From: Silvimonas amylolytica
GTDB taxonomy: Bacteria; Pseudomonadota; Gammaproteobacteria; Burkholderiales; Chitinibacteraceae
Reading direction: 5' to 3'
Length of the DNA: 64,000 bases
NCBI RefSeq assembly: GCF_014645555.1
Contig: NZ_BMLY01000002.1
Coordinates: forward strand, 427,109-491,108
Shown: positions 1-9,292 of the stretch, piece by piece
Numbering within the stretch: the first letter of the stretch is position 1
How the letters are laid out: the number at the start of each line of letters is the position of its first letter
Translations under genes and position numbers: made by a program
Notes under the pieces: generated by a model
The model's input: the letters and a program-made list of their open reading frames with translations, nothing else
Told to the model about the DNA's origin: nothing
Databases searched by the model: none

Positions 1-59
1 GACGTGGGCCCGGCACCCCGGGTTTGTAAAAGCTTTTACTCGCGCCGAAGGCGCTAACA
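1..59. repeat. Truncated copy of the urt inverted-repeat element
   Basis: The first bases of the window match, with changes, the right-hand end of the large inverted-repeat element found between urtB and urtC: a cccgg-rich block, a short A/T spacer and then a gcgcc...ggcgctaaca end (compare 3783-3827). The copy is cut by the window edge, so its other arm cannot be seen. It lies about 135 bases upstream of urtA, so the same type of element occurs both before and inside the urt gene cluster. Confidence 0.6.
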
Positions 60-195
60 AAAACAGCACCACCAAAAAAGAACACCTGTACGACAACTCG
101 ATAACACCGCATTACCAGAAAGCAAGAAAAGCAAAAAGCAGGAAGGAAACAACCCGTTCTCACACTTTCGTTATCAGTTATCAGGAGATGCAGTC

Positions 196-1461
196 ATGAA
201 CCGTCGTACCGCACTGAAACTTGTCACTGTTTGTACTCTCGCTGCTGCCAGCGGTTTGTCTGGTGGCGCGTTTGCCGCCGATACCATCAAGGTCGGCATC
301 CTGCATTCGCTGTCGGGCACGATGGCGATTTCTGAATCGGCGCTGGAACAAACCGCGCTGATGACCATTGCCGAAATCAACGCCCAGGGCGGCGTGATGG
401 GCAAGCAGCTGGAGCCGGTGGTGGTTGATCCTGCCTCCAACTGGCCGTTGTTTGCCGAAAAGGCCCGCCAGTTGCTCTCTAAAGACAAAGTCGCTGTGGT
501 GTTTGGCTGCTGGACTTCTGTCTCCCGCAAGTCGGTCTTGCCGGTGTTCCGTGAACTGAACGGCCTGTTGTTCTACCCGGTGCAGTACGAAGGCGAAGAG
601 CTGGAAAAGAACGTGTTCTACACCGGTGCTGCGCCTAACCAGCAGGCCATTCCGGCCGTGGACTACCTGTTGTCCAAAGATGGCGGTGAAGCCAAGCGCT
701 TTGTGCTGCTGGGTACCGACTACGTTTACCCGCGTACCACCAACAAGATCCTGCGCGCTTACCTGCATTCCAAGGGTATTCAGGACGCCGACATCATGGA
801 GGAGTACACCCCGTTTGGTTACTCCGACTATCAAACCATCATCGCCAAGATCAAGGACTTCTCTGCCCAGGGCAAGAAAACGGCCGTGGTCTCCACCATC
901 AATGGCGACTCTAACGTGCCGTTCTACAAGGAACTGGGTAACGCTGGCCTGAAGGCAACCGATGTGCCGGTGGTGGCATTCAGCGTGGGCGAAGAAGAAC
1001 TGCGCGGTGTGGATACCAAACCGCTGGTGGGCGAACTGGCCGCGTGGAACTACTTCATGTCTGTGAAGAACCCGGAAAACACCAAGTTCACCAAGATGTA
1101 TCGCGATTGGGCCAAGAAGCAAAAGCTGCCTAATGCCGATACCGCCGTGACCAACGACCCGATGGAAGCCACGTACGTGGGTATCCATATGTGGAAGCAA
1201 GCGGTCGAGAAGGCGCACTCCACCGACGTGGACAAGGTGATCGCCGCCATGGGTGGTCAGACCTTCAAGGCCCCGAGCGGCTTTACGCTGGAAATGGACC
1301 CGAAAAACCATCACCTGCACAAGCCGGTGATGATTGGCGAAGTGAAGGCTAACGGTCAGTTCAATGTGGTGTGGAAGACCAAAGAACCGGTCAAGGCCCA
1401 GCCATGGAGCCCGTTCATTGCCGGTAACGACAAGAAGAAAGACGAGCCGGAAGCGAATTGA
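196..1461 (+). CDS. urtA: Urea ABC transporter substrate-binding protein UrtA
   Basis: This is the periplasmic receptor that captures urea for the UrtABCDE importer. The 421-residue product begins with a signal peptide (about residues 1-28, ending AFA-AD). The signal has a paired arginine followed by a hydrophobic stretch, so Tat export is possible. The mature part starts IKVGILHSLSG, the typical first strand of type I branched-chain-amino-acid/urea receptors, and the length fits UrtA. An AGGAG Shine-Dalgarno sits about 9 bases before the ATG. urtB, C, D and E follow on the same strand, which separates it from the similar LivK family. In other bacteria urt genes are controlled by nitrogen status; no NtrC site was recognised here. 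Confidence 0.93.
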   Translation: MNRRTALKLVTVCTLAAASGLSGGAFAADTIKVGILHSLSGTMAISESALEQTALMTIAEINAQGGVMGKQLEPVVVDPASNWPLFAEKARQLLSKDKVAVVFGCWTSVSRKSVLPVFRELNGLLFYPVQYEGEELEKNVFYTGAAPNQQAIPAVDYLLSKDGGEAKRFVLLGTDYVYPRTTNKILRAYLHSKGIQDADIMEEYTPFGYSDYQTIIAKIKDFSAQGKKTAVVSTINGDSNVPFYKELGNAGLKATDVPVVAFSVGEEELRGVDTKPLVGELAAWNYFMSVKNPENTKFTKMYRDWAKKQKLPNADTAVTNDPMEATYVGIHMWKQAVEKAHSTDVDKVIAAMGGQTFKAPSGFTLEMDPKNHHLHKPVMIGEVKANGQFNVVWKTKEPVKAQPWSPFIAGNDKKKDEPEAN

Positions 1462-1480
1462 TCTGGCTGTGAGGTGAGTT

Positions 1481-1520
1481 TGTAGGGTGGATTGTCGCGC
1501 TGCTCCGAATCCACCCTACA
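1481..1520. repeat. REP-like palindrome, copy 1 (urtA-urtB gap)
   Basis: A perfect 13-base inverted repeat (tgtagggtggatt ... aatccaccctaca) encloses a 14-base centre. Related copies lie at 3181-3216 (inverted orientation) and 15703-15739, with a partial one near 6651. The hairpin falls in the 110-base urtA-urtB gap and could attenuate transcription or stabilise the urtA message; that role is inference. Confidence 0.75.
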
Positions 1521-1571
1521 GCTACCTGAATCAACTGCAGTCACCGCAACACCGAACACGGGGATACCCCA

Positions 1572-3164
1572 ATGAATACATGGATGCGTCATCTGCTGGC
1601 GCTGCTGCTGGGCTGTCTGATCATATTGCCCGCCCAGGCCGCGCTGGATGCCAAGGTCGTCCGCCAGTTGGTGGATGATGACTCTGACCAGAAACTGGCC
1701 GCCATTGCCGCGCTGGTGCAGGTCGGCACGCCCGAAGCCGCGCGCGTATTGCAGGCGCTGAGCAATGACGCTCTGTACGCCACGGACCAGCGCGTCTGGC
1801 TCAAGGCCGATGACAAGGTGTATGACGCCACCACCGGGGCCGAAATCAACCCCGCGCCGGATGACGTCGACACCGTATCGATCAACAACCGCGTGCGCGG
1901 CGCTCTGGATTCTGCCCTGAGCGGTTTCAAGCTGACCGACCCCGATCCGGCCGCGCGCCTGGCTGCGGCACAATCGCTGCAGGGCGACGTCAGCGCGGTC
2001 ATGATCCCGGCCCTGACTGCCGCACTCAAGAAAGAGACCGACAGCAAGGTCAAGCCGGTCCTGGAACAACTGCTGGCGCAAGCTAACCTGAAGAACCCGG
2101 ACGTGAAAGCCCGGCTGGCAGCGGTGGAAGACCTGAGCCATAGCAACTCGCCCAACGCGCGTGGCTTGCTGCTGACGCGGCTGGACCCGGCTAACGAACC
2201 CGACGCCAAAGTGCGCGCCGCCGCGCAATCCTCTATTGCCGCCATTGATTCACGCCTCGCCTGGATCAGCGCGCTGGCGAACGTGTTCTCTGGTCTAAGC
2301 CTTGGCAGCATCTTGCTGCTGGCGGCGCTGGGGCTGGCAATCACCTACGGCGTGATGGGCGTGATCAACATGGCCCACGGCGAACTCTTGATGGTGGGCG
2401 CGTACTCTGCCTACGTCGTGCAGGGTGTGTTCCGCGCGCATTTTCCCGGCGCGCAGGACTGGTATCTGGTGGCTGCTGTACCGGTCGCGTTCTGCGCCGC
2501 CGCAGCGGTCGGCATGCTCATGGAGCGCACCGTGATCCGCTGGCTGTACGGCCGCCCGCTGGAAACCCTGCTGGCCACCTGGGGGATCTCACTCGTCCTG
2601 ATCCAGGCCGCCCGCGCGCTGTTTGGTGCGCAGAACGTGGAAGTCTCCAACCCGTCCTGGATGTCTGGCGGTATTGAACTCTTGCCCAGCCTGACCTTGC
2701 CGTGGAACCGCGTGATCATCATCGGCTTTGCGCTGTCTGTGCTGGCGTTGATGTGGGCCATCATGCAAAAAACACGCCTCGGATTGTTTGTGCGTGCGGT
2801 GACGCAAAACCGCGCCATGGCCGGTTGCGTGGGCGTGCCGACGCGGCGGATTGATACCCTGGCATTTGGCCTTGGCGCCGGTATTGCCGGACTGGGCGGG
2901 CTGGCGTTGTCGCAGATCGCCAACGTCGGGCCGGATATGGGCCAGGGCTACATTGTTGACTCGTTCCTTGTGGTGGTGCTGGGTGGTGTCGGGCAACTGG
3001 CCGGCGCTGTCTGGGCTGCGCTGGGGCTGGGCATCGTGACCAAGCTGCTGGAAGGCTGGGCTGGGGCGGTGATCGCCAAGATCATTGTGCTGGCGATCAT
3101 CATTGTGTTCATCCAGCGACGGCCGCAGGGGTTGTTTGCGCTGAAGGGGCGGGTTGTTGATTGA
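1572..3164 (+). CDS. urtB: Urea ABC transporter permease UrtB
   Basis: This is one of the two inner-membrane permease subunits of the urea importer. The 530-residue protein has a signal-like N terminus (about 1-24). A long alpha-helical, HEAT-repeat-like periplasmic domain (about 25-225, repeated A-R-L-A-A-x motifs) follows; it is characteristic of UrtB and absent from LivH. A LivH-type permease core with about eight membrane segments fills the rest (about 235-530, with the conserved GVMGVINMAHGELLMVGAY region near 255). The first Met is preceded by gggataccccaat, a poor ribosome site, so translation may depend on context. The gene follows urtA by 110 bases containing a palindrome, and is separated from urtC by an unusual 714-base non-coding gap. 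Confidence 0.93.
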   Translation: MNTWMRHLLALLLGCLIILPAQAALDAKVVRQLVDDDSDQKLAAIAALVQVGTPEAARVLQALSNDALYATDQRVWLKADDKVYDATTGAEINPAPDDVDTVSINNRVRGALDSALSGFKLTDPDPAARLAAAQSLQGDVSAVMIPALTAALKKETDSKVKPVLEQLLAQANLKNPDVKARLAAVEDLSHSNSPNARGLLLTRLDPANEPDAKVRAAAQSSIAAIDSRLAWISALANVFSGLSLGSILLLAALGLAITYGVMGVINMAHGELLMVGAYSAYVVQGVFRAHFPGAQDWYLVAAVPVAFCAAAAVGMLMERTVIRWLYGRPLETLLATWGISLVLIQAARALFGAQNVEVSNPSWMSGGIELLPSLTLPWNRVIIIGFALSVLALMWAIMQKTRLGLFVRAVTQNRAMAGCVGVPTRRIDTLAFGLGAGIAGLGGLALSQIANVGPDMGQGYIVDSFLVVVLGGVGQLAGAVWAALGLGIVTKLLEGWAGAVIAKIIVLAIIIVFIQRRPQGLFALKGRVVD

Positions 3165-3180
3165 TCTGCGACCAAATTTC

Positions 3181-3216
3181 GTAGGGTGGATTCGGAGCGG
3201 TAGCGACAATCCACCT
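3181..3216. repeat. REP-like palindrome, copy 2 (inverted)
   Basis: Seventeen bases after the urtB stop lies gtagggtggatt, a 15-base centre, then aatccacct. The centre (cggagcggtagcgac) is the approximate reverse complement of the centre at 1494-1507, so this copy is inverted relative to copy 1. The last part of the right arm is degenerate. Confidence 0.7.
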
Positions 3217-3241
3217 TTGTTGGCCTAAAACCTTGAACTGC

Positions 3242-3827
3242 TGTTAGCGCCTTCGGCGCGCTTGTTTACACACCGGCGGTGGCCGGAGCACGTTACTTTC
3301 TTTGCTTCGCCACCTCGGCGGCCCCAAAGAAAGTAACCAAAGAAAGGCGACCCTAGCCTGGCGGCCCTCCGGGCTTCCCTCGGTTGGTCGGGAGCCTAAG
3401 GTCTCCCTCCACGCCCTCGGCGCTTGGCTTTAACGGGGGAGAAAGTCAAAAACAACGGCAACAGCAATAGCAGGAGAAGTCTGGGGCACCTGCAAACAGA
3501 CGGTTTGCGGGGTTGGGGTTGCAGTTGGGCCCCTTAAGGAGTGCCGAGCATCACAGGGAAGTCCGGGGTTTCGGCGTAAGGGTGTTTGAGGGCTTTAGCC
3601 CGAGTTCCTGCGCCCCTTGGTGGGTGCCCCCACAAAGCCATTAGTGAACCAGATGGCGGTTGCAGTGGGGGAGCCAGCCGGACTTCACGAGAAGCGTAGG
3701 GGACCCGCGAAGCGGGCGCTCCGCCGGGGTCGCCTTTTCTTTGGGTACTTTCTTTTGGCGATCCAAAAGAAAGTACCGTGCTCCGGGCACCCCCGGTATC
3801 AAAACACCGCGCCGTCTGGCGCTAACA
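3242..3827. repeat. Large inverted-repeat non-coding element inside the urt operon
   Basis: This 586-base block opens with tgttagcgc and closes with gcgctaaca. Its two arms, each about 110 bases, are imperfect reverse complements. Both carry in the same order a cgccg-rich block, a ccggagcacg box, an actttctttt box and an aaagaaag...aaggcgaccc box (3326-3353 on the left; 3727-3756 inverted on the right). The centre (about 3360-3720) is GC-rich without a convincing reading frame; a 75-codon frame at 3617-3844 runs across the repeat arm and looks spurious. No transposase is present. Similar aaagaaagtaacc-type blocks are recalled from many beta- and gammaproteobacterial genomes, and their function is unknown. 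Its position between urtB and urtC is odd for an operon. Confidence 0.75.
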
Positions 3828-3878
3828 ATGATTGTTTGATTTAAAGCTGCAATGTAATCCCAACAGGAACCAACCCCT

Positions 3879-5087
3879 ATGCGTACTTCCTACACCGAAC
3901 GCACTGCCAGGCTCCTTGGCCCCAAAGGCTGGACCGCGCTAGGCGTGTTCCTGGCCATCATGCTGATCGCCATGCCGGTGCTGCATCTCATGGTGCCGCC
4001 AGGCAGTCCGTTGCATGTGTCCAATTACGCCATCACGCTGATGGGCAAGATTCTTTGCTACGCGCTGGTGGCGGTGGCGATGGATCTGATCTGGGGCTAC
4101 GCCGGCATTCTCTCACTGGGTCATGGCCTGTTTTTTGCGCTGGGTGGTTACGCTTTTGGCATGTACCTGATGCGGCAGATCGGGCTGGATGGCAATTACC
4201 ACAGCCCCTTGCCGGATTTCATGGTCTTCCTGGACTGGAAAACCCTGCCCTGGTACTGGCAAGGTACTGATCACTTCATCTGGGCGGCGATCCTGACCAT
4301 AGCCGTGCCGACGGTGATTGCGTTTATCTTCGGTTTTTTCGCCTTCCAGTCGCGGATCAAGGGCGTGTATTTCTCGATCATCACGCAGGCGCTGACCTAC
4401 GCCGCCATGCTGTTGTTCTTCCGGAACGAGACCGGTTTTGGCGGCAACAATGGTTTCACCGACTTCAAACGCATTCTGGGTTACTCGGTGACTGCCCCAG
4501 AAACCCGTGTGGTGCTGCTTGGGCTCACCGCGCTGGCGCTGGCCGGTACGCTGGTGCTGGGCCGCTGGCTGGTGACCTCCCGCTTTGGCCGCGTGCTGGC
4601 CGCAACGCGTGATGCGGAATCCCGTGTCATGTTCATCGGCTACAACCCGCTCTGGTACAAGCTGTTTATCTGGACGCTTTCTGCCGCGCTGTGCGGTGTG
4701 GCTGGCGCACTGTACGTGCCGCAGGTGGGCATCATTAACCCGTCAGAAATGTCGCCAGCGTCTTCCATTGAAATTGCCATCTGGGTGGCAGTGGGCGGTC
4801 GCGGCACCTTGATTGGTGCCGTGATTGGCGCGGTGGCGGTGAGTCTGGCCAAGAGCTGGTTCACCGTGTCATTCCCGCAGTACTGGCTGTTTTTCCTGGG
4901 CTTTCTGTTCATTCTGGTCACACTGTTTTTGCCAGAAGGGTTGGTGGGGCTTTATCACAAGCTGCGTGGCAACAAGGTTGATGCGTCTGAACCCGCTTTC
5001 ACCCCTGATCCAGAAACCGTGAGCCCGGCCGCGGCCAAAGCCAGCGTCGCCCCATCACCACGTCACCTGACCGGAGAGAGCGCATGA
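3879..5087 (+). CDS. urtC: Urea ABC transporter permease UrtC
   Basis: This is the second inner-membrane permease of the urea importer (402 residues, LivM type). A short cytoplasmic N terminus is followed by about nine membrane segments. The family stretch MDLIWGYAGILSLGHG lies near residues 68-83, and SRFGRVLAATRDAESR (the loop that contacts the ATPases) near 232-247. The C-terminal 35 residues are a Pro/Ala-rich hydrophilic tail. The stop codon overlaps the urtD start (ATGA), indicating translational coupling. The upstream gap holds the inverted-repeat element, so urtC may need its own promoter or read-through from urtB. Confidence 0.93.
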   Translation: MRTSYTERTARLLGPKGWTALGVFLAIMLIAMPVLHLMVPPGSPLHVSNYAITLMGKILCYALVAVAMDLIWGYAGILSLGHGLFFALGGYAFGMYLMRQIGLDGNYHSPLPDFMVFLDWKTLPWYWQGTDHFIWAAILTIAVPTVIAFIFGFFAFQSRIKGVYFSIITQALTYAAMLLFFRNETGFGGNNGFTDFKRILGYSVTAPETRVVLLGLTALALAGTLVLGRWLVTSRFGRVLAATRDAESRVMFIGYNPLWYKLFIWTLSAALCGVAGALYVPQVGIINPSEMSPASSIEIAIWVAVGGRGTLIGAVIGAVAVSLAKSWFTVSFPQYWLFFLGFLFILVTLFLPEGLVGLYHKLRGNKVDASEPAFTPDPETVSPAAAKASVAPSPRHLTGESA

Positions 5088-5926
5088 TCACCGTTGCCAG
5101 TGGCACCGATTACGAAGCCCGCCCGCAATGGGCTGACCCCACCGCTGGCCAGGCACGTGCAGTACAGCCCGGCCAGTTGGATACCGCGCATGGTGTCATT
5201 CTGTATCTGGAAGACATCACGGTCAGTTTTGATGGCTTCAAGGCGCTCAACAACTTGAGCTTGAATATCGACGTGGGCGAACTGCGCTGCATCATCGGCC
5301 CCAACGGTGCGGGCAAAACCACCATGATGGACGTCATCACGGGTAAAACCCGCCCTGACAGCGGCAAGGCGTTTTTTGGCCAGACGCTGGATCTCACGCG
5401 TTTGAAAGAACCGGAAATCGCCCACGCTGGCATTGGTCGCAAGTTCCAGAAACCCACGGTGTTCGAGAACCACACGGTATTCGAAAACCTGGAACTGGCC
5501 ATGAAGACGGACAAACGCGTTTTCAAAAGCCTGTTCTTCAAACTCGATAGCGAAGCGCACGGTCGTATCGAGGCCGTGATGAAGCAAATCCGCCTTGACG
5601 CCCACGCCAACCGGCTCGCCGGGTTGTTGTCGCACGGCCAGAAGCAGTGGCTGGAGATCGGCATGCTGCTAATGCAAGAACCCAAGCTGCTGCTGCTGGA
5701 TGAACCCGTCGCCGGCATGACAGATGACGAAACCATGCGTACTGCCGAGCTGTTCTTGTCACTGGCTGGCCAGCATTCGCTGGTGGTGGTCGAGCACGAC
5801 ATGGCGTTTGTGGAAAAACTGGGTGGCAAGGTCACCGTATTGCATGAAGGCAGCGTGCTGGCCGAAGGAGACCTGGCCACTGTGCAGGCCGACCCGCGCG
5901 TGATCGAAGTCTATCTGGGCCGCTAA
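5084..5926 (+). CDS. urtD: Urea ABC transporter ATP-binding protein UrtD
   Basis: This is an ATPase subunit of the urea importer (LivG type, 280 residues). Walker A is GPNGAGKTT near residue 73, the signature is LSHGQKQWLEIGM near 183, and Walker B is LLLLDEPVAGM near 203, followed by the switch histidine in VVEHDM. The first 40 residues are an extension relative to LivG, which is normal for UrtD. The start ATG overlaps the urtC stop. Confidence 0.94.
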   Translation: MITVASGTDYEARPQWADPTAGQARAVQPGQLDTAHGVILYLEDITVSFDGFKALNNLSLNIDVGELRCIIGPNGAGKTTMMDVITGKTRPDSGKAFFGQTLDLTRLKEPEIAHAGIGRKFQKPTVFENHTVFENLELAMKTDKRVFKSLFFKLDSEAHGRIEAVMKQIRLDAHANRLAGLLSHGQKQWLEIGMLLMQEPKLLLLDEPVAGMTDDETMRTAELFLSLAGQHSLVVVEHDMAFVEKLGGKVTVLHEGSVLAEGDLATVQADPRVIEVYLGR

Positions 5927-5946
5927 GACAACAAGGACAAGCCACC

Positions 5947-6639
5947 ATGCTGCAAGTTGAAAACCTGAACCAGTATTACGGCGGCAGCCATATTCTGCGC
6001 GGCCTCTCATTCACTGCCCAACCGGGGCAAGTGACCACGCTGCTGGGTCGTAATGGCGTCGGCAAGACCACGCTGCTCAAAACCTTGATGGGCCTGGTGC
6101 CGGCCAAAACGGGGAGCATCCAGTTTGGTGGCGCAGATATCACCAAAATGGCGTCTTATGACCGGGTCAAAGCCGGCATTGGCTATGTACCGCAAGGGCG
6201 GGAGATTTTCAGCCGGCTCTCGGTGGAAGAAAACTTGCGGATGGGCCTGGCCACGCGCCCGGCCAGTTCAACCATTCCCCCCCGGATTTTTGAAATGTTC
6301 CCCGTGCTGCAGCAGATGATGCGGCGGCGTGGTGGGGATTTATCTGGCGGTCAGCAACAACAACTGGCGATTGGCCGGGCGTTGGCCATGGGGCCGAAGT
6401 TGCTGATTCTGGATGAGCCGACGGAAGGGATTCAGCCCTCCATCATCAAGGATATTGAACGGGCGATCCGCGCATTGGCAGAGACGGGTGAGATGGCGAT
6501 TCTGGTGGTGGAGCAGTATTACGATTTTGCCCGCTCGCTGGCGGATCAATACCTGGTGATGGAGCGGGGGGAGATTATCCGGGCGGGGAAGGGGTCTGAG
6601 ATGGATGCAGACGGCGTAAGGGAGCTGTTGTCCGTGTGA
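5947..6639 (+). CDS. urtE: Urea ABC transporter ATP-binding protein UrtE
   Basis: This is the second ATPase of the urea importer (LivF type, 230 residues). Walker A is GRNGVGKTT near residue 34, the signature LSGGQQQQLAIGRAL near 132, and Walker B LLILDEPTEGIQPS near 152; the DEPTEGIQPSI wording is typical of UrtE. It starts 20 bases after urtD with an aaggac ribosome site. It ends the transporter genes; no urease genes follow within the window, so urea breakdown must be encoded elsewhere or the nitrogen is used by another route. Confidence 0.94.
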   Translation: MLQVENLNQYYGGSHILRGLSFTAQPGQVTTLLGRNGVGKTTLLKTLMGLVPAKTGSIQFGGADITKMASYDRVKAGIGYVPQGREIFSRLSVEENLRMGLATRPASSTIPPRIFEMFPVLQQMMRRRGGDLSGGQQQQLAIGRALAMGPKLLILDEPTEGIQPSIIKDIERAIRALAETGEMAILVVEQYYDFARSLADQYLVMERGEIIRAGKGSEMDADGVRELLSV

Positions 6640-6649
6640 TTGTTTGAGG

Positions 6650-6676
6650 AGTGGGTGGATTCAGAGCCTAACGCTT
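6650..6676. repeat. Partial REP-like repeat after urtE
   Basis: The sequence gtgggtggattcagagc resembles the left arm and first centre bases of the REP-like palindromes but has no right arm. It sits in the 61-base gap between the convergent urtE and rsmE genes and looks like a decayed copy. Confidence 0.4.
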
Positions 6677-6700
6677 TCTTCTTCCGCCTTCTGGCCTGGG

Positions 6701-7423
6701 TTAGCCATCTCCAAACAACGCTTGCAACACTGACAACACGGCTGGCCCGGCAGTTTCCGTCCGCAAGATCCGTGGCCCCAGCACCACACCCTCAAACCCG
6801 CTAGCCCGCGCTGCGCTCTCTTCGCCATCAGACAAACCACCTTCTGGCCCGACCAACAGCACCACTTGGGTCTGCGGTGCGGGTAAAGCCGCCAGCCTGG
6901 TCGCTGCGCCGGGCGCCAGCAGCAAGCGGGTGGCGTCTTTGGGCGCCCTGGCCAGCGCTTCATCCAGCGATGTCACCGGCAAAATCTGCGGAATGCGCGT
7001 CCGCCCGCTTTGCTCGCATGCAGATTGCGCCACGCCTTGCCAGTGGGCCAGGCGCTTTTGTGCGCGCTCACCAGACAGTCGCTGCTGGCTGTAGGCACCA
7101 TGTACAGGCCAGATTTCCGTCACACCCAACTCGGTGGCCTTCTGGATGGTGTAATCCATGCGCTCGGCCGCGGAGACGGCCTGAATCAGGATGGTCCGCA
7201 ACGCCGATTCGCGGTTTTCCGGCGCAAAGCCAATGACGATCACCGCGACGTCGCGCTTGCCCATCAGGGTAATGCGCGCTTCGTATTCGCCGCCTTCGCC
7301 ATTAAACAAGGTGATGGTTTCGCCTGGTTGCATGCGCAAGACCTGGACATGGCGGGCCGGGCCTTCGGGCAGGTTGAAGGCGTTGTCTACAGATAATGTG
7401 TGGTCGACAAAAAAGCGCGGCAT
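6701..7423 (-). CDS. rsmE: 16S rRNA (uracil-1498-N3)-methyltransferase RsmE
   Basis: RsmE methylates U1498 of 16S rRNA in the assembled small subunit using S-adenosylmethionine. The 240-residue length is standard. An N-terminal PUA-like domain (about 1-72, MPRFFVDH start and EGPARHVQVLRM) is followed by a SPOUT methyltransferase domain. The knot motifs are VVLLVGPEGGLSDGE near 180-194 and LGPRILRTETAGPA near 211-224. The gene is convergent with urtE and divergent from ilvA. Confidence 0.93.
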   Translation of the reverse strand: MPRFFVDHTLSVDNAFNLPEGPARHVQVLRMQPGETITLFNGEGGEYEARITLMGKRDVAVIVIGFAPENRESALRTILIQAVSAAERMDYTIQKATELGVTEIWPVHGAYSQQRLSGERAQKRLAHWQGVAQSACEQSGRTRIPQILPVTSLDEALARAPKDATRLLLAPGAATRLAALPAPQTQVVLLVGPEGGLSDGEESAARASGFEGVVLGPRILRTETAGPAVLSVLQALFGDG

Positions 7424-7771
7424 TGCGGCGGGTCCAGCGGGCGGTAAAACATCTATTCTGGCAGATCGTGCGGGTTGATCGCCAGATAGCGACTGTTCTG
7501 GGGATCAGGGAACCTCTGAACAAGCCTGTCCGGAGCCGGGTGGGTCTGATTCAGGATGAGCTGCAAGGCATAAACCGCAGTCGTAGCATGGCTACAGCGA
7601 GGATTTATAACGCCGCAGATCGCCTGAAGCGGACACGCTCCGGCCGGAAGGGACTTGTTCAGCGGTTCCTTGGTAGTCAGATTGCTTCATGACTCAAACC
7701 CAAGCTTGTGGCTACAATGCAAGACCCGGTGCATTATTGGCCGGGTCCATTTACAACTGCCGGATAACACC
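7424..7771. other. Non-coding gap rsmE-ilvA
   Basis: This 348-base gap between divergent genes contains the MITE-like element at 7508-7670 and, closer to ilvA, a tacaat hexamer at 7713-7718 that could be the ilvA -10 box; no good -35 was seen. An open frame extends the ilvA frame upstream to 7655, but it runs into the repeat and is not believed to be translated. No T-box or other riboswitch was recognised. Confidence 0.6.
7508..7670. mobile_element. MITE-like element with terminal inverted repeats
   Basis: Ends of about 26 bases are imperfect inverted repeats: gggaacctctgaacaagcc on the left and, inverted, aggaaccgctgaacaagtcc on the right, continuing into tccgg on both sides. The 163-base unit has no open reading frame. 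An internal gtagc...gctac hairpin lies near 7582. Ends, size and lack of coding capacity suit a miniature inverted-repeat element; no target duplication was identified. Confidence 0.6.
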
Positions 7772-9292
7772 ATGTCTGAAGCCACGAACGACTATCTGGA
7801 ACGAATCCTCACCGCCCGCGTTTACGACGCTGCGATTGAAACACCGCTGGAAGCCGCGCCGAATATTTCGCGCCGAATTGGCAACCACGTGTTCATCAAG
7901 CGCGAAGATATGCAACCGGTGTTTTCGTTCAAGATTCGTGGCGCATACAACCGCATGGCGCAACTGACTTCGGCTGAGCTGGAACGCGGCGTGGTGACGG
8001 CTTCGGCCGGTAATCATGCCCAGGGCGTGGCGTATTCGGCGCAAATTCTGAAGTGCCGCGCCACGATCTTCATGCCGACCACCACGCCGAATATCAAGGT
8101 GGATTCCGTCACCCGCCGCGGTGCAGAGGCCGTGCTGGTGGGCGATTCGTTCAGTGATTGCTATCAAAGCGCGGTGAACCTGGCGCAGGAAACCGGCGCT
8201 GCGTTTATCCACCCGTACGACCACCCGGATGTGATTGCCGGGCAGGGCACGATCGGTATGGAGTTGCTGCGCCAGCATTCGGGCAAGCTTGATGCCATCT
8301 TTATTCCGGTGGGCGGCGGTGGTTTGATCGCTGGCGTGGCGGCGTATATCAAGCGCCTGCGGCCAGAGGTCAAGATCATCGGGGTCGAGCCGACCGATGC
8401 CAACGCCATGTATCTTTCGCTCAAACTGGGCGAGCGCGTCGTGCTGCCGCAAGTGGGTATCTTTGCCGACGGCGTGGCGGTGAAACAGGTTGGCGAAGAG
8501 ACCTTCCGCCTGTGTCAGGAACTGGTGGATGAAGTGATCCTGGTCGATACCGATGCCATGTGTGCGGCCATCAAAGACATGTTCGAAGAGACGCGTTCGA
8601 TTCTGGAGCCGTCCGGTGCATTGGCCCTGGCCGGCATGAAAGCCTGGGTGGCGCGTGAAAAGGCGCAAGACAAAACCCTGGTGGCGATCACCTCTGGCGC
8701 CAACATGAACTTCGATCGTCTGCGTTACGTGGCCGAACAAGCCGAGCTGGGTGAAGAGCGCGAAGCCATCATTGCGGTGACGCTGCCGGAGCGCCCGGGC
8801 GCATTCCGTGCACTTTGCAGTGCGATCGGTGCCCGCAATATCACTGAGTTCAACTACCGTTATGGGGACAAGGATCAGGCCCACGTATTTGTGGGCCTGC
8901 AGATTCAGAACCGCGCTGAAGTAACGGATCTGATCGAGAAACTGGCCGCTGAAAAACTGGCGGCAGTAGATCTGACCGATAACGAACTGGCCAAGCTGCA
9001 CATCCGCCATCTGGTGGGGGGCCATGCGCCGCAAGTGGATAACGAACGCGTGCTGCGCTTTGAGTTCCCGGAGCGGCCGGGCGCGTTGCTCAACTTCTTG
9101 AACAGCATGGTGGGCAGCTGGAATATCTCGTTGTTCCACTATCGTAACCATGGTGCTGACTATGCTCGTACGCTGGTGGGCATTCAGGTGCCCCCAGAGG
9201 AGGATGCCGCGTTTGCCGAGTTCCTGGAAAAGCTGGGCTACCCGCACTGGCTGGAAACCGACAACAAGGCGTACCAGCTCTTCCTGGGTTAA
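7772..9292 (+). CDS. ilvA: Threonine ammonia-lyase, biosynthetic (IlvA)
   Basis: This enzyme deaminates threonine to 2-oxobutanoate, the first step of isoleucine synthesis, using pyridoxal phosphate. The start chosen is the ATG giving MSEATNDYLER (506 residues, as in other biosynthetic forms). The cofactor lysine is in SFKIRGAYNR (Lys54), and the glycine-rich phosphate loop GGGGLIAG is near 187. Two C-terminal ACT-like regulatory domains (about 325-410 and 420-506, each beginning with a PERPGA motif) indicate feedback control by isoleucine/valine. These separate it from the catabolic TdcB form. A strong terminator follows. Confidence 0.95.
   Translation: MSEATNDYLERILTARVYDAAIETPLEAAPNISRRIGNHVFIKREDMQPVFSFKIRGAYNRMAQLTSAELERGVVTASAGNHAQGVAYSAQILKCRATIFMPTTTPNIKVDSVTRRGAEAVLVGDSFSDCYQSAVNLAQETGAAFIHPYDHPDVIAGQGTIGMELLRQHSGKLDAIFIPVGGGGLIAGVAAYIKRLRPEVKIIGVEPTDANAMYLSLKLGERVVLPQVGIFADGVAVKQVGEETFRLCQELVDEVILVDTDAMCAAIKDMFEETRSILEPSGALALAGMKAWVAREKAQDKTLVAITSGANMNFDRLRYVAEQAELGEEREAIIAVTLPERPGAFRALCSAIGARNITEFNYRYGDKDQAHVFVGLQIQNRAEVTDLIEKLAAEKLAAVDLTDNELAKLHIRHLVGGHAPQVDNERVLRFEFPERPGALLNFLNSMVGSWNISLFHYRNHGADYARTLVGIQVPPEEDAAFAEFLEKLGYPHWLETDNKAYQLFLG

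Follow-up and report, generated by a model that had tools for sequence, protein, structure and literature searches.

H-type pseudoknots in which a loop and a stem form a triple helix are known from ToxI, telomerase and frameshift signals. Among dispersed bacterial repeats, REP sequences and their BIME and REPIN arrangements are intergenic and palindromic, occur in many copies and form inverted dimers, as outlined in the available text of PMC3733652 and PMC2817692. The TIRs of TIRtrons, as far as the available text of Di Nocera et al. 2013 (PMC3733652) describes them, are long inverted repeats that fall into families, stand singly, in dimers or in groups, and flank tyrosine transposase genes. 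The repeat described here, which lies between urtB and urtC of Silvimonas amylolytica, resembles the triple-helix pseudoknots in topology and in having a third, A-rich strand next to stem 1, but it is a dispersed intergenic repeat, and its triple contacts are predicted ones. In contrast to REP and REPIN sequences, whose REPs measure 20-40 nt, it is built of units of 220-260 nt with a pseudoknot core, and its ends (TGTTAGCGCC) lack the GTAG or CGTC tag. Searches of the open-licence literature with sequence strings of the element returned no relevant paper, and no such element is described in the available text of PMC8632094 and PMC2817692.

The window that we analysed is a 64,000-nt stretch of S. 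amylolytica contig NZ_BMLY01000002.1 (positions 427,109 to 491,108). Its urt genes encode, in order and according to Pfam, a substrate-binding protein, two permeases and two ATPases, and a gap of 714 nt separates urtB (1572-3164, stop at 3164) from urtC (3879-5087, start at 3879). The initial annotation had placed a non-coding inverted block with arms of about 110 bases in this gap, at 3242-3827. The block was confirmed, and the computed coordinates and identities show its arms to be real (3263-3303/3766-3806, 85%; 3323-3345/3736-3758, 91%; 3343-3366/3714-3737, 75%), but they are portions of two larger units, roughly 220 and 260 nt in length, which are inverted and placed tail to tail. The left unit, of type A, runs head to tail on the plus strand from 3242 to 3467 (match to model R2 at 3339-3455, equivalent to 8448-8564 of locus L068) and terminates in a low-complexity tail of the CAACGG/CAACAG type; the right unit, of type B, occupies 3513-3827 on the minus strand (match to model R1 at 3513-3741, L068 8622-8850). 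The right unit also holds a hairpin-like extra insert of ~65 nt (3609-3674, approximate limits drawn by eye) that has no counterpart in the orthologous copy of Silvimonas terrae (L070 6447-6979). By direct reading, the element ends in perfect 10-nt inverted repeats, TGTTAGCGCC and GGCGCTAACA, and two internal hairpins have arms of 100% identity. Its computed RNA folding energy is -315 kcal/mol, compared with -245 +/- 7 in 100 shuffles (z = -9.7). The copy at 1-59, upstream of urtA, had been taken for a truncated one; it is instead the right end, on the minus strand, of a complete 570-nt element that is cut by the window edge and extends to about -510 (contig C2 of the same genome, 426598-427167, including 10 N).

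This element belongs to a family of dispersed, non-coding repeats, and the expectation of additional copies in the genome was borne out. A blastn search of the genome listed 100 pieces, and the 26 loci examined contained 45 unit matches, some of them fragments, with about 30 sites in the genome. Two profiles gave 58 and 66 matches over these loci and those of relatives, which after resolution of overlaps amounted to 57 units, 45 of them from the S. amylolytica genome. Twenty type-B units served to build model R1, which found 24 type-B units in S. amylolytica (G000), at least 72 in a sister species (G001) and at least 71 in S. terrae (G002), from no more than 77 scored candidates; counting S. 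amylolytica in each case, the model matched 34 of the 37 genomes in the family and 30 of 274 genomes sampled from the class. A full copy consists of two homologous units, inverted and tail to tail, and lone units are also found. From its outer end inward, a unit opens with an end hairpin (GCGCC-GGCGC) and a GC hairpin; the long, A/T-rich S1 hairpin, an A-rich segment and a conserved stretch of the GGCGACC type come next, and a multi-helix inner domain precedes the tail, for instance (CAACGG)n or (CAACAG)n. Types A and B differ in the inner domain and are nevertheless homologous, because the model of each type also detects the other. Tails differ in sequence and length from copy to copy, and the spacer between them often contains other repeats, including palindromes of the GTAG and CGTC types (tags as given in the available text of PMC3733652). 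The inverted-dimer arrangement of REP and REPIN sequences was seen in 32 of the 37 pairs of neighbouring cores less than 900 nt apart: these 32 (17 in Silvimonas and 15 elsewhere, at distances of 352-748 nt) were tail to tail, one pair was head to head and four had the same direction. Terminal inverted repeats are present, and no autonomous copy that might share them was noticed in the loci read.

Several arrangements were observed beside this general pattern. Three cores in the same direction at 213-nt spacing form a tandem, unlike the inverted pairs, in genome G620 (contig C46, 3980-4431), and two inverted cores of Burkholderia stagnalis, 2.1 kb apart (L216 5544-7715) and considered as a possible autonomous copy, enclose several ORFs, one of which resembles a PAAR-type protein by eye. 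An element at L076 3561-4819 has an SAH riboswitch on one side and two glycine riboswitch aptamers on the other, and an Rfam search over six loci of S. amylolytica found riboswitches adjoining elements and no match across the elements themselves. A separate GTAG-tagged palindrome, identified by direct reading, lies just ahead of the urtB-urtC element at 3181-3215 and occurs in the S. terrae gap too. Such GTAG-starting palindromes (GTAGGGTGGATT...AATCCACC) are found at 1482-1519 and at 3181-3215, that is, in both the urtA-urtB and the urtB-urtC gap, and palindromes of the same kind recur in the spacers of other elements; GTAG is a tag of REP-type palindromes in the available text of PMC3733652.

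The core of each unit fits an H-type pseudoknot in which an A-rich third segment (L3) would lie alongside S1 in register; we propose this topology because the S1 loop covaries with a downstream segment and because L3 mirrors S1. The S1 stem has the form CT(a)CT(b)G ... CA(b)GA(a)G, and the segment that follows it, CA(a)GA(b), is the mirror of its 3′ strand. Among informative units, defined as those with unequal a and b and perfect S1 runs, L3 matched the register of S1 in 42 of 44 cases in Silvimonas and in 142 of 148 elsewhere, and the reversed register was never seen; without the units that hold the exact 26-nt core used for picking loci, the match was 38 of 44. The unequal run classes comprised (4,3), (3,4), (4,2) and (3,2), and less frequent tracts (T3CTCT2 with A3GAGA2, for example) also obeyed the mirror rule in a scan that sought mirrors and hence displays successes only. 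Beyond L3, the S1 loop recurs in reverse complement (S2). In 79 distinct loop/tail combinations from outside Silvimonas, the mean pairing run was 4.04 nt, compared with 2.41 nt after shuffling, and none of 5000 shuffles, which ignore relatedness, reached this value; in 18 of these combinations, the pairing that starts at the first position covers fewer than 3 nt. Loops vary little within Silvimonas, and with its 17 combinations alone, 34 of 5000 shuffles were as high. In the left core of the urtB-urtC element (plus strand), S1 (GTTACTTTCTTTG/CAAAGAAAGTAAC) with its loop spans 3292-3337, as assigned from the inverted-repeat pair and the pairing rule, and the loop holds an insert of the CCTCGGCGG type in this copy. 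L3 (CAAAGAAA, 3338-3345) and then S2 (GGCGACCC), which would pair with the S1 loop, follow within 3338-3353, as read from the sequence and the pairing rule. On the minus strand, the right core has S1 (GGTACTTTCTTTTGG/CCAAAAGAAAGTACC, an inverted-repeat pair) with its loop at 3744-3777, and L3 (CAAAGAAAA, 3735-3743) with the S2 strand (GGCGACCCC, 3726-3734) at 3726-3743, read in the same way as on the left. From the registers we infer base triples between L3 and S1. We also considered whether the third segment pairs with the partner unit and dropped this idea, because each unit matches its own sequence.

Is this fold conserved? Compensatory changes support a conserved, RNA-like structure that extends far beyond the pairing of one arm with the other. 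In MAFFT alignments, double compensatory changes were present at 9 of 24 predicted pairs in 25 type-A inner domains and at 5 of 28 in 20 type-B inner domains. In sets fitted to the models, which retained 50 of 68 rows for type A and 47 of 73 for type B once those of the other type had been removed, 98.1% of cells were paired in the 50 type-A units, compared with 54-71% when the partners were slid, and 96.7% in the 47 type-B units, compared with 34-56%; double changes occurred at 9 of 24 and 8 of 30 pairs, respectively. Which strand would be active is arguable both ways, because the bias of the inner helices is opposed by S1 and by the strand of the Rfam matches. On the head-to-tail strand, the inner helices have 123 G-U cells as against 26 A-C cells (23 and 14 when counted by positions, a single pair supplying 37 of the G-U cells). 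In the outer S1 stem, however, 20 of 98 Silvimonas units have C-A mismatches, which are G-U on the opposite strand, and none has T-G, and in the loci inspected the three Rfam matches beside cores (see below) lie on the tail-to-head strand.

The family reaches well beyond Silvimonas. At least 118 stretches containing the exact 26-nt core were listed, among them sequences from Burkholderia, Halopseudomonas, Pseudomonas abyssi, Polaromonas, Rhodoferax, Aggregatibacter, Actinobacillus, Rodentibacter, Mannheimia, Lysobacter and Psychromonas, and the matches listed also include metagenome-assembled genomes (MAGs) labelled Ruminococcus, Bacteroides, Bacteroidales, Lentimicrobiaceae and Selenomonadales, labels that may be wrong for single contigs. 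Relatives of the element occur in Pasteurellaceae and Lysobacteraceae genomes, and two Selenomonadales MAGs gave 29 and 39 near matches to the core. With up to three mismatches, a pattern that misses the other run classes, the core was found in 11 of 299 Pseudomonadota genomes (all 11 from one class), in 8 of 200 genomes of the order, S. amylolytica included in both, and in 2 of 149 genomes of the phylum of one of the Selenomonadales MAGs, that MAG included; the reversed pattern used as a control gave no match. No match was found in 20,395 Escherichia coli records. A plasmid passenger was considered and rejected: 12 of 72,556 plasmid records matched, covering only 16-19% of the 264-nt query. 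A tie to one gene function was likewise rejected, since of ten genes upstream of units in other genomes, eight had Pfam families, all different (including HisG, fumarase, QueH, MsrA and AcrB), and two had none. How could a 26-nt core be kept identical between Pseudomonadota and MAGs that bear the labels Bacteroidales and Selenomonadales without a visible transposase?

We tentatively favour, as a plausible but far from assured reading, a dispersed structured element that most likely acts at the level of RNA and that, between urtB and urtC, would uncouple urtAB from urtCDE, a function we infer from the predicted fold and the position of the element. The selected object would be a folded single strand, most likely RNA produced by transcription of a neighbouring gene. 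On a urtABCDE transcript, the left unit could fold right after urtB, and both units could pair together; the folded units might then form a barrier to 3′-to-5′ exonucleases and possibly a processing site, and we propose that the mRNA levels of urtAB and urtCDE would thereby be uncoupled. REP elements inside operons have been proposed to act likewise on mRNA levels. A preference for gene 3′ ends has been reported for REPs and is weak in these units, whose heads, by a rough ORF method, face gene 3′ ends in 34 cases versus 24 in Silvimonas and in 80 versus 68 elsewhere; 18 of these 68 ORFs lie partly over the unit itself and are possibly spurious.

It is also a real possibility that the element is selfish DNA whose fold, as single-stranded DNA or a cruciform, is recognised by a transposase or recombinase acting in trans, in the manner of REP/REPIN or MITE-like sequences, any effect on urt being incidental. 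Structured mobile DNA would produce much of the same covariation, and the perfect ends of the inverted pair in the urtB-urtC copy, the many copies with their patchy occurrence over distant taxa, the coexistence of single units and pairs, and the unrelated flanking genes are all as this explanation would have them. So is the behaviour of S1 and L3 in orthologous units: in the eight orthologous pairs with clean parses and a changed run class, L3 had changed too (8/8), the remaining pairs having kept their run class or being unparsable, and these coupled switches suggest either exchange among copies or repeated compensation. Most sites, however, are common to the sister species. When 26 flank markers were sought in G001 and S. 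terrae and the regions retrieved, a unit was present at 17 of the 24 sites of G001 and at 18 of the 22 sites of S. terrae at which both flanks were found; the single clean empty site (L090 versus L305) had no recognisable target duplication, the flanks being otherwise too diverged. The Silvimonas copies are now mostly inherited in place, and they seem to swap sequence with one another. Nor do the genomes supply the expected enzyme, as a search for Y1_Tnp (PF01797) found no match in S. amylolytica, G001 or S. terrae. The domain is present in 22 of the 37 genomes of the family, with two matches in another sister (G003), and unit and Y1_Tnp counts were uncorrelated across the 37 (Spearman 0.06, p 0.72), although one genome (G011) has both, with 30 units and six Y1_Tnp matches. 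Among 20 Y1_Tnp surroundings taken from the 60 listed in relatives, 19 had no core and one a single core in a pattern search, and none was flanked by a core pair, so that the units are set apart from the TIRs of TIRtrons, as these are described. Mobilisation by a RAYT/REP system is therefore unsupported for these genomes by the PF01797 search, the surroundings and the count correlation. A phage passenger was rejected as well, since none of 50,697 phage records matched and no viral contig was found by the exact core.

Could the units instead be pieces of small RNAs, acting in trans or as sponges, with a global regulator (CsrA or Hfq, for example) as their target? We consider this improbable. 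Many tails consist of A-R-N triplets, which are a motif of the Hfq type, but tails vary among copies in sequence and in length. On sequence grounds, three unconnected Rfam names hold parts of the family in other taxa. TwoAYGGAY (RF01731), which the available text of PMC2864571 lists as a probable RNA and that of PMC4333381 proposes to bind CsrA, had 119 matches at E 0.01 in genome G509, 34 of them over the cut-off, and corresponds to the inner domain only, on the opposite strand, falling inside the units of that genome: 8 of the 13 listed plus-strand cores were followed 80-94 nt on by a minus-strand match (for example, core 136856 with matches at 136936(-) and 137300(+)). A sub-threshold TwoAYGGAY match in L111 also lies inside a region found by R1. 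No TwoAYGGAY match at E 0.01 was found, however, in S. amylolytica, G001 or S. terrae. Bp1_684 (RF02421), for which RT-PCR validation is listed in the available text of PMC3521395 and whose description there states no pseudoknot or paired architecture, has a match beside a core in Burkholderia seminalis (L171), and AaHKsRNA22 (RF02902) has one beside a core in Aggregatibacter actinomycetemcomitans (L169); neither matched window positions 1-8000 or the six S. amylolytica loci. An ordinary known RNA was rejected for the locus itself, where Rfam gave two sub-threshold matches in 1-8000, one of them (purD, E 0.72) inside the element. Least probable of all, and in our view very improbable, is a terminator or promoter block that divides urtAB from urtCDE. 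Four terminator-like sites lie in 3100-4000, compared with 2.0 +/- 1.4 expected, but this excess is small, and a weak consensus scan of the same interval found no sigma-70-like site, which leaves the promoter for urtCDE suggested by the initial annotation unsupported.

A more doubtful proposal than the reading favoured here is that the units represent a class of paired pseudoknots, crossing phyla and carrying an RNA triple-helix strand that follows the stem base for base, which would have spread horizontally and then been kept between genes as a general transcript-protecting or an RNA-level selfish element, the three Rfam families being fragments of it. If this were true, several orphan RNA families would be joined through one element, the units would provide an extensive set of natural pseudoknots in which the third strand could be read from covariation, and gene dosage set by operon-internal repeats would be open to a direct test.

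The urtB-urtC gap itself was compared in relatives, and it is filled differently from genome to genome, not with a conserved unrelated sequence. The S. terrae gap has the same left junction and the same kind of element as that of S. amylolytica; the helices of the right unit differ, and S. amylolytica has the additional insert. In G001, a single unit lies elsewhere in the gap, and G006 has a partial unit. Other palindrome-like sequence, judged by eye, occupies the gap in G003 and G008 (L071 and L073), and in G028 and G020 the gap is short and no unit was seen. The gap looks as if it tolerates or attracts repeats, as judged by eye for G003 and G008. A neighbouring gap of the same operon is also unusual in S. 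terrae, where the urtA-urtB interval (L070 4445-4775) contains a run of N and an odd G/T-rich sequence that perhaps reflects misassembly.
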